DNA of 64,000 bases, from positions 273,626 through 337,625 of the forward strand of contig NZ_JAILWF010000001.1 in NCBI RefSeq assembly GCF_025699065.1, read 5' to 3'. Source of the stretch: Nitrosarchaeum sp. (lineage in GTDB: Archaea; Thermoproteota; Nitrososphaeria; Nitrososphaerales; Nitrosopumilaceae). Both the position numbers and the translations under genes were made by a program. A model generated the notes under the pieces. It had not been told where the DNA came from. It saw only the letters and a list, made by a program, of their open reading frames with translations, and ran no database searches. Below, one piece after another: positions 24,665-62,044 of this stretch (position 1 is the first letter of the stretch; each line of letters begins with the position of its first letter).

Positions 24665-25258
24665 GTGGAATCAGAATCTCAAAAAGACGTTACAGATTAT
24701 TATAAACACCTATCCTTATTCTGGACAGATATTCTTCATTTAATGTCCAGTAAGCCTCAAGCCTTGACTTCATTAGGTCCAATGAGAGCTTTTGCTTCAA
24801 ATTCAAAGAAAATATCAACTGAGCTAATACAGATTAATGAAAACTTGATGGAATTTAACAAATATGTCACAGAATACTATAAGCAATTAGCAGAAACATG
24901 GAATGAGGCACAAAAGAAAGTAAATCTAAAAGCTCCGGATGTACCACATGACATTGAGCAAATTGAATCATTTAAAAGAATATGGATAGATATTTTTGAT
25001 AATGATTTTACAGAATTATTTGATTCTGAAAAATTTGGAGTAAATTATGGAAAATTAGTTTCAAAAGAGCTTGAACTGACAAAAAATTGGCACAACATTT
25101 CAAATGTGATATTACAGGCTGCAAATCTTCCAAGCAAAGAGGAGATTGATGAGGTATACAAAGAAATACATGCGCTGAAAAAAAGAGTTACAAAGCTAGA
25201 GATTGAATTAAAAAAGAAAAAACCAAGTAACGTGGAGATAACAAAAAATGAAAAGTGA
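24665..25258 (+). CDS. phaE: class III PHA synthase subunit PhaE
   Basis: 197 aa, GTG start. A helical protein with the PhaE C-terminal signature LPSKEEIDEVYKEIHALKKR (residues ~160-180) followed by a coiled coil (VTKLEIELKKKK). PhaE has no catalytic site; it binds PhaC and is needed for polymerisation. It overlaps phaC by 11 nt. Archaeal PhaE proteins diverge strongly outside the C-terminal motif, as here. Confidence 0.9.
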   Translation: MESESQKDVTDYYKHLSLFWTDILHLMSSKPQALTSLGPMRAFASNSKKISTELIQINENLMEFNKYVTEYYKQLAETWNEAQKKVNLKAPDVPHDIEQIESFKRIWIDIFDNDFTELFDSEKFGVNYGKLVSKELELTKNWHNISNVILQAANLPSKEEIDEVYKEIHALKKRVTKLEIELKKKKPSNVEITKNEK

Positions 25259-26312
25259 GTCAAAATTTGATCCTAAAATCATCGAAGAGATGATAAAATT
25301 TAGTAAGCATGTTATAGATGCACCCAAGTTAGTTTCAGCTCCTGATGAAATCAGTCTAGAAATTACACCTCATGATGTAGTTCAAGAAATTGATAAAACA
25401 AGACTATTACATTACAAACCACTAACAGATAAACAACATAAAACACCGTTACTAATTTCATATGCGTTAATTAACAGATATCATATTTTAGATATACAAC
25501 CAGAAAAAAGCTGGGTTAGAAATTTGCTAATGCAGGGATTTGATGTGTATATGCTAGATTGGGGATCTCCAACTAGTATGGACAAATATTTGGATTTTGA
25601 TGATTATGTTAATGGATATTTAGATAGTAGTGTAGAGTTAATCAAAGACGAATCATCAGTAGAAAAAATATCCCTACAGGGATATTGTACAGGAGCTACA
25701 ATTGCAACTGCATATACAGCATTACATCCAGAAAGTGTGAAAAACTATATCGCGACAGCACCAGTCATTGATGGATGGAGAGATACCACAGTAATTAGTA
25801 ATCTTGCAAAGCATATGGACGTAGACAAAATGGTAGAAACTATAGGAAATATGCCTCCTGAATTCATGTATTACTGTTTTTCCGTTCTAAAACCGTTTGA
25901 ACAGGGAATTGAAAAATATGTCAATTTTTTCAAAAATATAGAGAATAAAAAATTTGTTGATAATTTTCTAAGAGTAGAAAAATGGCTTGGGGACACACCG
26001 CCTATTCCAGGTGCTCTTTTCAGACAATGGATTAAGGATATTTATCAAGATAATCTACTAATTCAAAACAAGATGTTTGTTGGTGGAAGTCACATAGATT
26101 TGAAGAAGATAAACATGCCAATATTTACACAAGTTGCAGTAGGGGATCACCTAGTATCACCTGAGTGTAGTATGCCACTCCATTATGCGGTAGGAAGTGA
26201 GGATAAAACATTGAAAATATACCCAACTGGGCATGTAGGAATGATTGCTAGTTCATTATCTCAAAATAAGGTATTACCAGAGCTAGGAAATTGGCTTGCT
26301 GAAAGATCATAA
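25248..26312 (+). CDS. phaC: class III poly(3-hydroxyalkanoate) synthase subunit PhaC
   Basis: 354 aa, typical for class III. The lipase-like box has Cys in place of Ser (GYCTGA, Cys147), with Asp300 (VGDHLVSPE) and His329 (TGHVGM) completing the triad. VYMLDWGSPT is the other family hallmark. It polymerises (R)-3-hydroxyacyl-CoA into PHA granules. A 3-hydroxyacyl-CoA dehydrogenase of the carbon-fixation cycle is encoded at 48224, but it probably makes or uses the S isomer, so an R-specific reductase or hydratase is also needed. Confidence 0.95.
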   Translation: MKSESKFDPKIIEEMIKFSKHVIDAPKLVSAPDEISLEITPHDVVQEIDKTRLLHYKPLTDKQHKTPLLISYALINRYHILDIQPEKSWVRNLLMQGFDVYMLDWGSPTSMDKYLDFDDYVNGYLDSSVELIKDESSVEKISLQGYCTGATIATAYTALHPESVKNYIATAPVIDGWRDTTVISNLAKHMDVDKMVETIGNMPPEFMYYCFSVLKPFEQGIEKYVNFFKNIENKKFVDNFLRVEKWLGDTPPIPGALFRQWIKDIYQDNLLIQNKMFVGGSHIDLKKINMPIFTQVAVGDHLVSPECSMPLHYAVGSEDKTLKIYPTGHVGMIASSLSQNKVLPELGNWLAERS

Positions 26313-48223: not shown

Positions 48224-49363
48224 ATGAATCTCAAAAACATCACAGTATTAGGTTCTGGAATTATGGGTCATGGTATTGCACAAGTTTCAGCTACTGCAGG
48301 ATACAACGTAGTTCTAAGAGATATCGAACAGGGATTTTTAGATAAAGCAATGGAGAAGATCAAATGGAGTTTAGACAAATTAGCAACTAAAGGAAAAATA
48401 ACACAACAAGAGGCAGATGCTATTTATTCAAGAATAACACCGGTTGTAAATCTTGCAGATGCTGTAAAAAATGCACAATTAGTTATCGAGGTAGTTCCAG
48501 AAATTATGGATTTAAAGAAAAAAGTCTATGCAGAACTAGATTCAGTTGCAGACAAAGATGTAATATTTGCATCAAATACAAGCACTTTACCAATTACAGA
48601 AATCGCAAACACGACATCGCGTCCAGACAAATTCATCGGAATTCATTTTTTTAATCCACCTCAATTAATGAAATTAGTAGAAGTGATTCCAGGTGAAAAA
48701 ACATCACATGACATAGTTGATTTAACTTTAGAATATGTAAAATCTGTAAAAAAAGAATCGGTAATTTGCAGACGAGATGTTCCAGGTTTTATTATCAATA
48801 GATTATTCATTCCAATGGTTCATGAAGCATGTTACATGATGGACAGAACCGGAGCAACAATGACTGAAATTGATTCGGCGGTAAAATTTAAGCTTGGTTT
48901 TCCAATGGGGATTTTTGAGCTAGCTGACTTTACTGGAATGGATGTAATACACAAGGCAACTACAGAGATGTATCTTAGAGATAAAAAAGTGATTTTACCA
49001 CATCCGACAATTGAAAAAATGTTTGATGCAAAAAAACTTGGTCAAAAATCAGGGGAAGGATTTTACAAATACTCGGACGATAAATATGAACGTGTTGCAT
49101 TATCTGAAGAGATGGCACAAAAATGCAATCCAATTCAACTTGTTGCAAATATTTTAAACAATGCAGCTTGGCTTGTTTCTAACAAAGCAAGTGATATTGA
49201 AGAAATTGAAAAAGCTGCATTTCTTGGATTAGGATTAAAAAAACCACTCTTTGAGACAGCAAAAGAAATAGGAATTAAAAACATTGTAAATGAATTAAAA
49301 CAGTTAGCAACAAAACACGGTAAATTTTACGAGCCAGATCCGTTGCTAATTGCTATGCAATAA
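48224..49363 (+). CDS. 3-hydroxyacyl-CoA dehydrogenase (3-hydroxybutyryl-CoA type)
   Basis: 379 aa. NAD motif VLGSGIMGHGIAQVSATAGY (residues 8-27), the central FIGIHFFNPPQLMKLVEVI with the catalytic His, and DVPGFIINRLFIPMVHEACY. It carries an extra C-terminal domain beyond the ~280-aa short forms. In the 3HP/4HB cycle an enzyme of this kind oxidises (S)-3-hydroxybutyryl-CoA to acetoacetyl-CoA before thiolysis to two acetyl-CoA. It shares 18 nt of 3' overlap with the convergent LOG-family gene. Confidence 0.92.
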   Translation: MNLKNITVLGSGIMGHGIAQVSATAGYNVVLRDIEQGFLDKAMEKIKWSLDKLATKGKITQQEADAIYSRITPVVNLADAVKNAQLVIEVVPEIMDLKKKVYAELDSVADKDVIFASNTSTLPITEIANTTSRPDKFIGIHFFNPPQLMKLVEVIPGEKTSHDIVDLTLEYVKSVKKESVICRRDVPGFIINRLFIPMVHEACYMMDRTGATMTEIDSAVKFKLGFPMGIFELADFTGMDVIHKATTEMYLRDKKVILPHPTIEKMFDAKKLGQKSGEGFYKYSDDKYERVALSEEMAQKCNPIQLVANILNNAAWLVSNKASDIEEIEKAAFLGLGLKKPLFETAKEIGIKNIVNELKQLATKHGKFYEPDPLLIAMQ

Positions 49364-58286: not shown

Positions 58287-60071
58287 ATGCTGAAATTTCA
58301 AGGCAAAGTTGCACTAGTAACTGGCAGTGGAACAGGAATAGGTCAAGCCATTGCTAAAAAATTTATTGAAAATGGTGCCAGTGTGATAATTTTGGGCAGA
58401 CGAAAAGAACCCTTAGAAGAAACATCAATTATGCTTAAAGAAATTATTTCCAAAGTAAACAGCGGAGCATCAGTAAGAATTTTCTCAGGAGTGGATGTAA
58501 GCGATGAATCTGGAATGAATGAAATGTTTGATACATTAAAAAAAGAAAATGTTACAGTAGATTATGTAATTAATAATGCGGGTGTTTCAGGCCCGGTAAC
58601 ATGTTTTTCTCATGCATCACTGGATGAATTCAAAAGTGCTGTAGAGATTCATTTGACAGGTACATTTTGGGGTTCAGTACAAGCTCTCAAAGTAATGAAA
58701 GAAAATGGCAAGATTGTAACAATATCTACATTTTTCACTGAAGAAAGACCACACGAACAAAGACCATACAGATTTAGAAGTCCGTACACTGCAGCACAAG
58801 GTGCAAAGAACAGGTTAGTTGAGGCTATGTCTTGGGAATTAACTGATAAAAAAATCATATCTATTGGAACAAATCCAGGTCCAGTTCACTCAGATAGAAT
58901 ATACAAGACAGTATATCCAAAAGCAGCAGCGGAATTTTTACGTGTCACTGGATTTGAAGACTTGACACCTGTTCAAGTTGATGCAACAAATAAAGAACTA
59001 TTCCCATTACTAGGAGAAGATGAAAATGTGGTAAAAGAAGGAATTACAAAAGCTGCACAAAAATTAGCAAAAGAGATGAACAAAGATGTTTCAAAATTAA
59101 CTGTTACAATTACAAACCTATTAAACAAAATTCAAACGATAGCTGAAAAAGTTCAAAAAAATACATCACATATGATTGCAGACCAGCAATTCTTATCACA
59201 AGTTCAAGTTGCTGAATCAGTTTTGAATCTGTGTGATGACAATATTGCAAAAATATTAAACGGCAAAGTAATTCCGGGGGATAGAGTATTTTATCCAGTA
59301 AAACCATTCATTGGTACAACAACACCAGGAGTTCACCAACCTGACTTTACAGGAAGATCAGTTGTTTTTACAGTTGATGCAACTGAAAAATCAGACGCAC
59401 AAAGAGTAGAGTATCTTGCTCAACACGTTATAAAAAATGGTGGCAAAGTTGCATGTTTTATCTCTGAATCAACTCCCAAAGAATTACAAGAATACATCAG
59501 CTCAAAGTTTCATTCACACATAGTAAATATCAAGAATCCAGATGAAGTTAAAAAATGGCTAAACACTGCAAATACTAATCTTGGAAGTATTTTAGCGGTT
59601 ATACATATCACAGGTAAACTACCAAACATTTCAAAATTAGTCGAACTATCAAGAGCAAAATGGGAAGAACTAGTTGAAAAATTCATCACCACGCCTGCAA
59701 TAGTAGGACAAGGTGCACTAGAACAATTTGTTCCAGGAGGAGGCAATGACCCAAGACTATTCAAAGATGCAAAAGGTGCACTGATGATAATTGGTCCAGA
59801 TTTGCCTGTTGGTCCAAAAGTTACAGGAATGCAAAGAGCACAAGTAGAGGTATTTCGTGGGGCCCTAAGACCATTTACTACTACAGTAAATCAAGAACTT
59901 AGTGATGTTCTAAATTCAAAAATTAGATTATTTACTATTTTCCCAGGTTCTGTAACAGGAATAGAACCAAAAAATGAGAAAATAGTTCAAGCGTTGAATT
60001 TCCTAGTAACTGATAGTGCGCTTGATTCATCGGAAGTCACATTTTGTGTTGATGAATCAAGATTAGAATGA
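58287..60071 (+). CDS. tandem short-chain dehydrogenase protein, resembling one half of Chloroflexus malonyl-CoA reductase
   Basis: 594 aa. The first SDR domain (residues 1-250) has the cofactor motif TGSGTGIG (12-19), NNAG (96-99), the active-site Ser in VTISTFF and Tyr167, but the normal Lys of YxxxK is Gln171 (YTAAQGAK). A helical linker (about 260-345, LCDDNIAKILNGKVIPGD) leads to a second, degenerate Rossmann-like domain with SVVFTVDATEK, GPKVTGMQRAQVEVFRG and ALRPFTTTVNQEL. Domain order and these motifs resemble, from my memory of that protein, the C-terminal part of bifunctional malonyl-CoA reductase of Chloroflexus. It overlaps the MaoC gene (ATGA). Confidence 0.85.
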   Translation: MLKFQGKVALVTGSGTGIGQAIAKKFIENGASVIILGRRKEPLEETSIMLKEIISKVNSGASVRIFSGVDVSDESGMNEMFDTLKKENVTVDYVINNAGVSGPVTCFSHASLDEFKSAVEIHLTGTFWGSVQALKVMKENGKIVTISTFFTEERPHEQRPYRFRSPYTAAQGAKNRLVEAMSWELTDKKIISIGTNPGPVHSDRIYKTVYPKAAAEFLRVTGFEDLTPVQVDATNKELFPLLGEDENVVKEGITKAAQKLAKEMNKDVSKLTVTITNLLNKIQTIAEKVQKNTSHMIADQQFLSQVQVAESVLNLCDDNIAKILNGKVIPGDRVFYPVKPFIGTTTPGVHQPDFTGRSVVFTVDATEKSDAQRVEYLAQHVIKNGGKVACFISESTPKELQEYISSKFHSHIVNIKNPDEVKKWLNTANTNLGSILAVIHITGKLPNISKLVELSRAKWEELVEKFITTPAIVGQGALEQFVPGGGNDPRLFKDAKGALMIIGPDLPVGPKVTGMQRAQVEVFRGALRPFTTTVNQELSDVLNSKIRLFTIFPGSVTGIEPKNEKIVQALNFLVTDSALDSSEVTFCVDESRLE

Positions 60072-60517
60072 AAAAATTTTCTGAACTTAAAGTTGGAGAT
60101 GAGTTTTTTTCCACGTGTAGTATTTCCGAAAAAGAATTGACAGAATATTTCAAATTCTCAAGGGTGAAAAATGCATTTTTAGAAGACATGCAAAATGCAA
60201 AACAGAAAATTGTTTCTGGAAGAGCAATTTTATCTAGAATGGAAGGAGAGTTTACTAGGCTGAGTCAAATTTATGGCAACCACATAGTTTTTGTTGGAAC
60301 GGATGGGGATTCTGAATGGGAGAATAGAAGTAGCAGATTTCTAAAACCGCTATATACTGACGATGTATTGAAGATAAAATTTACAATATCTGCAAAAGAA
60401 GACATCGATGATGAATTTGGAAAGATTGCAATTAACTATGAAGGAACAAAACAAGACGGAGAGATAGTTGTACTTTCAAGGAAAAACTGGTATAGAATAA
60501 AAAAATCAATAACCTAG
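60068..60517 (+). CDS. MaoC-like hotdog-domain protein
   Basis: 149 aa. ELKVGDEFFSTCSISEKELT is the usual opening of MaoC dehydratase/hotdog proteins, followed by IVSGRAILSRMEG, where enoyl-CoA hydratases of the family carry the catalytic His (HGxxxxS-like); that His is missing here. Co-translated with the tandem SDR by overlap, so it probably acts on the same acyl-CoA or thioester. Confidence 0.82.
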   Translation: MKKFSELKVGDEFFSTCSISEKELTEYFKFSRVKNAFLEDMQNAKQKIVSGRAILSRMEGEFTRLSQIYGNHIVFVGTDGDSEWENRSSRFLKPLYTDDVLKIKFTISAKEDIDDEFGKIAINYEGTKQDGEIVVLSRKNWYRIKKSIT

Positions 60518-61249: not shown

Positions 61250-62044
61250 TCAAATATACAATAATTTAACAAACAAAAATAAATTTTCAGACGCAGAATC
61301 AAAAAATAATTTGATCGCAGCCAAAATAATAATTGATGAAACTAGAATTTGCAAATATCTTTCTTTGATATCTAATGAAAGTCTTGCACCGACTAATCCA
61401 CCAGCAAATGCGCCGGCAGCCAATAATCCTGCGTGTATAAAGTCAGGGTGACCCAAAATACTGTGAACAATAACTCCAGATAGAGATGCAAAAAGCAAAA
61501 TAAATTGTGATGTAGGAGCTGCTTTTTTCATAGTCATTCCCATTCCAACTACCATTAATGGAACAAAGATGATACCTCCACCGATTCCAAAAAAGGACGA
61601 TATTATCCCTGCAAAAAAACTTGCACCTATTGCAAATACGATCATTTGTTTTGTTAGAGTCTTTTCTCTAGTCTCTATCTTTTTTCTCAAAAATATATAG
61701 ACAGCAGAGGATACTAACACTAATCCGAATAGAACCTTAAAGATCGAAGGAGTTACATCACTTGAAATATAAGCACCAAGTATTGTACCAGGAATACACA
61801 GAAGTCCTAGCTTTAATCCAAGAGAATATTCAATTCGCTTTTGTCTAGAATATGAAAATGTAGAAGCTACGGCATTACTAAATGCCGCAAACAAACTATT
61901 GCTTGCAGCTAAAGTGGGAGGAAACCCAAAAAAAGTCAACACAGGAACTACAATTATTCCACCGCCAAGACCTATCATCGAACCAAGGATTCCAGCCACA
62001 AATCCTAATGGAATGAACCATAATTGATCAATCAAGATATTCAA
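61250..62044 (-). CDS. TauE/SafE-family permease
   Basis: 264 aa with about eight hydrophobic segments and two repeats of GGGIIVVPVLTFFG/GGGIIFVPLMVVG, the family signature. TauE/SafE proteins export sulfite, sulfoacetate or other organic anions. Start is a TTG at 62044. The substrate is not known here. Confidence 0.92.
   Translation of the reverse strand: MNILIDQLWFIPLGFVAGILGSMIGLGGGIIVVPVLTFFGFPPTLAASNSLFAAFSNAVASTFSYSRQKRIEYSLGLKLGLLCIPGTILGAYISSDVTPSIFKVLFGLVLVSSAVYIFLRKKIETREKTLTKQMIVFAIGASFFAGIISSFFGIGGGIIFVPLMVVGMGMTMKKAAPTSQFILLFASLSGVIVHSILGHPDFIHAGLLAAGAFAGGLVGARLSLDIKERYLQILVSSIIILAAIKLFFDSASENLFLFVKLLYI

Follow-up and report, generated by a model that had tools for sequence, protein, structure and literature searches.

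RESULTS

A tandem-SDR gene in an ammonia-oxidizing archaeon

The genome that carries this locus (1.6 Mb in 11 contigs, 99.7% complete) contains archaeal amoA, and its host is therefore an ammonia-oxidizing archaeon (AOA). Within the window, by which we mean the whole stretch of 64,000 nucleotides that was analyzed, an open reading frame at 58287-60071 of the forward strand starts with ATG, has its stop at 60071, and encodes a protein of 594 amino acids; the minus strand opposite it is closed (Table 1). This is not a chance open reading frame, since four AOA families have orthologs of full length. The coordinates of the tandem-SDR gene described in an initial annotation are confirmed, and its Gln171 and the stretches IAKILNGKVIPGD and ALRPFTTTVNQEL are found as given there.

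Pfam finds only SDR in the 594-amino-acid protein (adh_short, residues 7 to 203, 1.5e-38), and NCBIfam finds generic SDR models alone, each below its own cutoff. An AlphaFold2 model built from 23 orthologs (pLDDT 88, pTM 0.90) has, in order, a Rossmann SDR core, a helical insertion, a return to the core, and, from about residue 350, a second Rossmann-like domain; residues 150 to 160 and 331 to 340 are weakly predicted. Of the parts named in the initial annotation, the classical SDR is seen both by Pfam and in the model, and the helical stretch and the second domain are seen in the model.

Table 1. Features of the MCR-like gene, in window coordinates
Feature	Position	Strand	Evidence
Candidate AOA malonyl-CoA reductase (594 aa), a stand-alone tandem SDR of the MCR family	58287..60071	+	Sequence, profile, fold, distribution
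Catalytic SDR core (aa 1-204)	58287..58898	+	Pfam adh_short 7-203; hhalign to MCR SDR3 core, E 7e-30
TGSGTGIG (aa 12-19), a dinucleotide-binding loop, then GRR with R38	58320..58343	+	23 orthologs; residue map
YxxRxxY predicted malonate-binding motif and active-site helix (aa 161-174): Y161, R164, Y167, Q171, K174	58767..58808	+	
GPVHSDRIYKTVYP (aa 198-211), with R204 at the position of MCR R785 (CoA-binding)	58878..58919	+	Residue map, orthologs
Helical insertion within first SDR domain (~aa 205-300), where MCR-C has its extra domain	58899..59186	+	AlphaFold2 helices 209-295; alignment
SDR core return (~aa 301-340), 'FLSQVQVAESVLNL..NGKVIPGDRVFYP'; the "linker helix" of the initial annotation	59187..59306	+	Alignment with MCR
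Degenerate second SDR domain (~aa 350-594), without cofactor motif and without YxxxK	59334..60068	+	AlphaFold2 model

Similarity to bacterial malonyl-CoA reductase by sequence and fold

The reference for comparison was the bifunctional malonyl-CoA reductase (MCR) of the 3-hydroxypropionate bicycle, from Chloroflexus, Roseiflexus, and some proteobacteria (K14468; PDB 8hjw, 8hi4, 8j2b, and 6k8s), whose N-terminal and C-terminal halves are referred to here as MCR-N and MCR-C. When all PDB sequences are searched with phmmer, bifunctional MCRs rank first (8hi4, 7e-30; 8hjw, 2e-28), with alignments that cover both catalytic SDR domains of each MCR, and the best non-MCR match is a glucose dehydrogenase at 2e-20. 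The lead is wider when the ortholog profile is compared with the PDB (1.4e-45 for MCR versus 5.9e-26 for the next family). Profile-profile comparison by hhalign, which had been proposed with the initial annotation, is colinear with bacterial MCR-C across 552 columns (E 7e-25).

In a Foldseek search of the PDB, MCR structures occupy ranks 1 to 24, with TM scores of 0.66 to 0.73 across the whole protein. The top matches are MCR C-terminal halves (8j2b, E 2e-25, TM 0.71 by query), and MCR N-terminal halves are slightly lower (8hi6, 1.6e-23, TM 0.69). The best structural match of the predicted model is therefore MCR and not an unrelated SDR. Another tandem SDR, 2et6, has an rmsd of 18.9 A and a TM of only 0.54, and the TM of single SDRs is 0.31 to 0.37. 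Because the MCR values are far above these, it is the arrangement of the domains, and not the SDR fold alone, that is MCR-like: the MCR layout of catalytic SDR, extra domain, and degenerate SDR is present with a whole-length TM of 0.71. The four tandem SDR domains of the bifunctional layout are absent from the 594-amino-acid AOA protein, which has two.

Taken by itself, the second domain shows no specific likeness to MCR, whether in sequence or in fold. With hhalign, the tail (residues 225 to 594) matches the MCR-C and MCR-N tails at E values of 0.017 and 0.002, respectively, and a separate AlphaFold2 model of residues 228 to 594 matches generic SDRs (E 5e-9) and not MCR first. Since the tail-only matches are this weak, we have left the second domain out as independent evidence. 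They also bear out that the two stretches on which the initial annotation had drawn are weak evidence for MCR. SDRs usually end in the pattern 'VA..v..L......G..i..d', and the supposedly MCR-like 'IAK-L-NG...P-D' stretch falls on this generic ending; the helix likened to 'TLHAF-T-T' falls on the generic SDR alpha-F helix, whose usual pattern ALRPFTTTVNQEL follows. The case for an MCR-type enzyme rests on the catalytic domain, the substrate-binding motif, and the global architecture.

Active-site and substrate-binding residues

In Roseiflexus castenholzii MCR-C, S593, R616, and D651 bind NADP+, and S731, Y749, K753, and R799 are essential (Zhang et al. 2023, PMC10470521). Malonate is held by Y743xxR746xxY749, R785 and L795 serve CoA, and R1164 is contributed by SDR4; in each MCR half, the carboxylate is bound by YxxRxxY (PMC10470521). 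We mapped these residues to the AOA protein through HMMER alignments, which give the pairs R616 and R38, D651 and D70, S731 and T148, Y743 and Y161, R746 and R164, Y749 and Y167, K753 and Q171, and R785 and R204. All eight AOA residues are invariant among the 23 orthologs, as are N97 and the cofactor loop. The NADP(H)- and CoA-binding residues R616, D651, and R785 are all kept (as R38, D70, and R204), and the sole functional exception among the eight is K753. That is, Tyr167 of the catalytic Tyr-x-x-x-Lys is retained, and the lysine is replaced by Gln171, in every ortholog. R799, which lies in the extra domain, is unaligned, with R219 the nearest arginine at one residue off, and R1164 of the second domain has no evident counterpart by alignment. 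T148 corresponds to Thr165 of MCR-N, and the segment GPVHSDRIYKTVY resembles GPIASERIRTVF of MCR-N.

The pattern YxxRxxYxxx[KQ] is found in 23/23 AOA proteins, 17/17 MCR-C, and 9/10 MCR-N, and in 0/93 generic SDR domains (the comparison set comprised 92 to 93 bacterial and archaeal domains). Both MCR halves have arginine at the positions of R164 and R204 in 18/18 cases; among generic SDR domains, arginine occupies the R204 position in 1/92 and is outside the commonest letters at that of R164. Judged by these alignments, YxxRxxY together with R204 is the MCR-specific signature of the protein, one that the initial annotation did not contain.

Within residues 161 to 174, the AOA helix reads Y167-TAA-Q171-GA-K174 and the MCR-C helix reads Y749-AVS-K753-AG-Q756, with the lysine and the glutamine invariant on both sides. 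Lys174, invariant in AOA, is thus matched by an equally invariant glutamine (Gln756) in MCR-C. From the alignment, lysine and glutamine look exchanged over one helical turn between the AOA protein and MCR-C, and Lys174 may take over from the usual lysine.

Phylogeny of the catalytic domains

In a tree of catalytic domains with 45 other SDRs, the AOA proteins, MCR-N, and MCR-C come together (83/91), and the AOA and MCR grouping is kept, with a support of 84, when the motif is masked and 60 other SDRs are used. These sequence trees give the grouping moderate support. Within it, a sister grouping of MCR-N and MCR-C is weakly favored (90/61), and the AU test rejects neither placement of the AOA protein with MCR-C (p 0.44) nor its placement with MCR-N (p 0.447). 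As neither is rejected, the tree cannot assign the reaction to that of the CoA-reducing or that of the aldehyde-reducing half, and the AOA branch may represent a third lineage, one that lies outside the duplication behind the bacterial fusion. The initial annotation had likened it to the C-terminal half; the Foldseek ranking agrees with this, but in the trees it is equally near both halves. Full-length bifunctional MCR genes also occur outside the Chloroflexota, at L045 (5926-9645) and L097 (5926-9642); the hosts are a gammaproteobacterial MAG and Aerophototrophica crusticola, and the proteins, of ~1239 amino acids, are 57% identical.

Distribution among archaea

The orthologs have 43 to 99% identity over the four AOA families. 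Among 201 order-level genomes, the MCR-like gene is present in 109 and amoA is present in 109: 106 have both, 89 have neither, 3 have only the MCR-like gene (G628, G700, and G707), and 3 have only amoA (G587, G690, and G692). All six mismatched genomes are fragmented MAGs of 140 to 350 contigs. The gene is single copy, with two fragments on two contigs in one genome. Across 397 genomes of the phylum there are 88 matches, all inside AOA families f1, f2, f3, and f8, and non-AOA relatives have single SDRs only. We treat the co-occurrence with amoA as supportive only, since AOA share many core genes. In viral contigs, unrelated proteins matched through their SDR domain alone, at ≤36% identity.

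Pathway context and neighboring genes

AOA extracts show malonyl-CoA reductase activity, and the gene is given as unassigned (PMC6038301, PMC6964070), in keeping with the remark in the initial annotation that this thaumarchaeal enzyme has been hard to assign. A curated marker set of February 2026 lists the Nitrosopumilus maritimus-type malonic semialdehyde reductase (K18602) and no malonyl-CoA reductase (PMC12894919). No later assignment was found in the literature searched; an earlier one elsewhere is possible. In N. maritimus, succinyl-CoA reductase likewise figured among the unassigned enzymes (PMC6038301). As cited in PMC6964070, the AOA malonic semialdehyde reductase has been characterized (Otte 2015).

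A crenarchaeal-type MCR was not found in the genome, in which Semialdhyde_dhC occurs in two proteins, one asd and one argC. With a single aspartate-semialdehyde dehydrogenase homolog, there is no crenarchaeal-type MCR paralog and no duplicated asd as in Sulfolobales. The genome has one aldehyde dehydrogenase (L140, SSADH-like), one iron-type alcohol dehydrogenase (L221), and a glycerol-1-phosphate dehydrogenase-like protein (L222), the last two named by eye.

The statement in the initial annotation that the window holds other genes of the 3HP/4HB cycle stands for one clear case, a 3-hydroxyacyl-CoA dehydrogenase (48224-49363, 9 kb upstream of the MCR-like gene) that is probably of the Nmar_1028 type; no other cycle genes lie directly beside the MCR-like gene. 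The next gene (60068-60517, forward strand) begins with an ATG that overlaps the MCR-like gene's stop. Its 149-amino-acid product has a hint of a hot-dog/MaoC-like fold (1q6w, profile E 2e-4), without an evident hydratase motif, and because this gene occurs in only part of one family, we dropped it as operon evidence. A convergent gene at 61250-62044 (minus strand; also at L031, L033, L034, and L035) encodes a TSUP-like membrane protein (TauE/SafE-type, named by eye). This neighborhood is conserved: the gene lies near the MCR-like gene in the majority of Nitrosopumilus-family loci and in three further AOA families. Farther away, at 25248-26312 (forward strand), is a PhaC-like alpha/beta hydrolase, possibly a polyhydroxyalkanoate synthase.

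DISCUSSION

Membership of the AOA protein in the MCR family is well supported. Lacking the YxxxK lysine and the four-domain layout, it is a variant within that family and not a plain member. Based on sequence comparison and the predicted model, it is a stand-alone, half-size member that probably acts as an NADPH-dependent malonyl-CoA reductase, with substrate, reaction, and cofactor all inferred. The candidacy raised in the initial annotation thus gains support from sequence, profile, fold, malonate-binding residues, a distribution that tracks amoA, and the gap in the pathway. The main caveat is that the catalytic lysine that is essential in MCR-C (K753) is Gln171 in AOA.

In the proposed mechanism, the TGSGTGIG loop and R38 would bind NADPH; Y161, R164, and Y167 would grip the malonyl carboxylate; and R204 would hold the CoA side beneath the helical insertion. 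Hydride would pass to the thioester carbonyl, after which CoA would depart. The degenerate second SDR domain would have a structural role in closing the pocket, and a second enzyme, an iron-type alcohol dehydrogenase, would then reduce the malonate semialdehyde. The fuller proposal, that a third, undivided lineage of the MCR family, distinct from either half of the bacterial fusion, supplies malonyl-CoA reduction in AOA through a rearranged SDR active site, its essential lysine moved by one helical turn (Gln171/Lys174, versus Lys753/Gln756 in MCR-C), we consider evenly balanced between right and wrong.

The protein might instead carry out the reaction of MCR-N, reducing malonate semialdehyde to 3-hydroxypropionate, or both steps like the bacterial fusion. 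The tree, being equally near both MCR halves, allows this, the YxxRxxY motif is a carboxylate binder in both halves, and T148 and GPVHSDRIYKTVY have their likenesses in MCR-N. However, a malonic semialdehyde reductase of AOA is already characterized, according to the citation of Otte 2015 in PMC6964070, and has its own KO (K18602, PMC12894919), and the genome carries the iron-type alcohol dehydrogenase L221. Moreover, the insertion of ~127 residues, counted from GPV to the core return, is nearer to that of MCR-C (~187) than to that of MCR-N (~71), and MCR-C ranks first in Foldseek. We therefore regard an MCR-N-type reaction as unlikely.

It is quite unlikely that the substrate is another CoA thioester, above all succinyl-CoA, or that the enzyme is promiscuous for malonyl- and succinyl-CoA. 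Crenarchaeal malonyl-CoA reductase accepts succinyl-CoA, which counts for such a reading, as does the fact that the N. maritimus succinyl-CoA reductase likewise lacks an assigned gene. Against it, no feature of the protein is more conserved than its malonate-recognizing triad, and the succinyl-CoA step has a candidate in the SSADH-like L140. The replacement of an essential lysine by Gln171, which might block hydride transfer, and the missing R1164 equivalent could also point to an SDR that belongs to another pathway, or to a noncatalytic scaffold, with nothing more than shared MCR ancestry, and the PhaC-like synthase in the genome means that other acyl-CoA reductases may be needed. Yet the cofactor loop, R38, D70, N97, the tyrosine, the malonate motif, and R204 are invariant despite the deep divergence of AOA, which is unlike a dead enzyme, and the gene is retained as a single copy in almost every AOA. 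We find this last explanation very unlikely.

AOA rank with the most abundant autotrophs of ocean and soil, and the cycle by which they fix CO2 includes the reduction of malonyl-CoA. If this is the function of the protein, its gene would account for that step in AOA and could serve to mark their version of the cycle in genomes, and the reductase, small and with a single function, would be of interest for making 3-hydroxypropionate. AOA and Chloroflexus would then have recruited one and the same enzyme family for the step, and Sulfolobales an unrelated one, and the Lys/Gln exchange would bear on SDR catalysis.

Comparison with known systems

The crenarchaeal MCR (Metallosphaera type, K15017) catalyzes, in the cycle as crenarchaea run it, the step proposed for the AOA protein, but it belongs to the aspartate-semialdehyde dehydrogenase superfamily and is unrelated to it in fold and ancestry; the semialdehyde dehydrogenase fold is absent from the AOA protein, which is an SDR by Pfam. 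The malonate semialdehyde reductase half, MCR-N (8hi6 and 8aew), shares with the AOA protein its architecture, YxxRxxY, a threonine at the T148 position, and a similar GP(I/V)xSxRI segment, with TM scores of 0.66 to 0.69. MCR-N differs in having a much shorter insertion and in the presence of Lys182, and its best Foldseek E value is about two orders weaker than that of MCR-C. Compared with the whole bifunctional MCR, which has ~1220 amino acids and two catalytic sites, the AOA protein has ~600 amino acids and one site. It is archaeal, has 27 to 29% identity to MCR-C in the core only, has an insertion of ~127 residues rather than ~187, lacks a conserved R1164, and has Gln and Lys at the positions of MCR-C Lys753 and Gln756. 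What it shares with MCR-C is the order and packing of its parts (a catalytic SDR, then the helical insertion, then a degenerate SDR), YxxRxxY, equivalents of R616, D651, Y743, R746, Y749, and R785, and an NADPH-type site.
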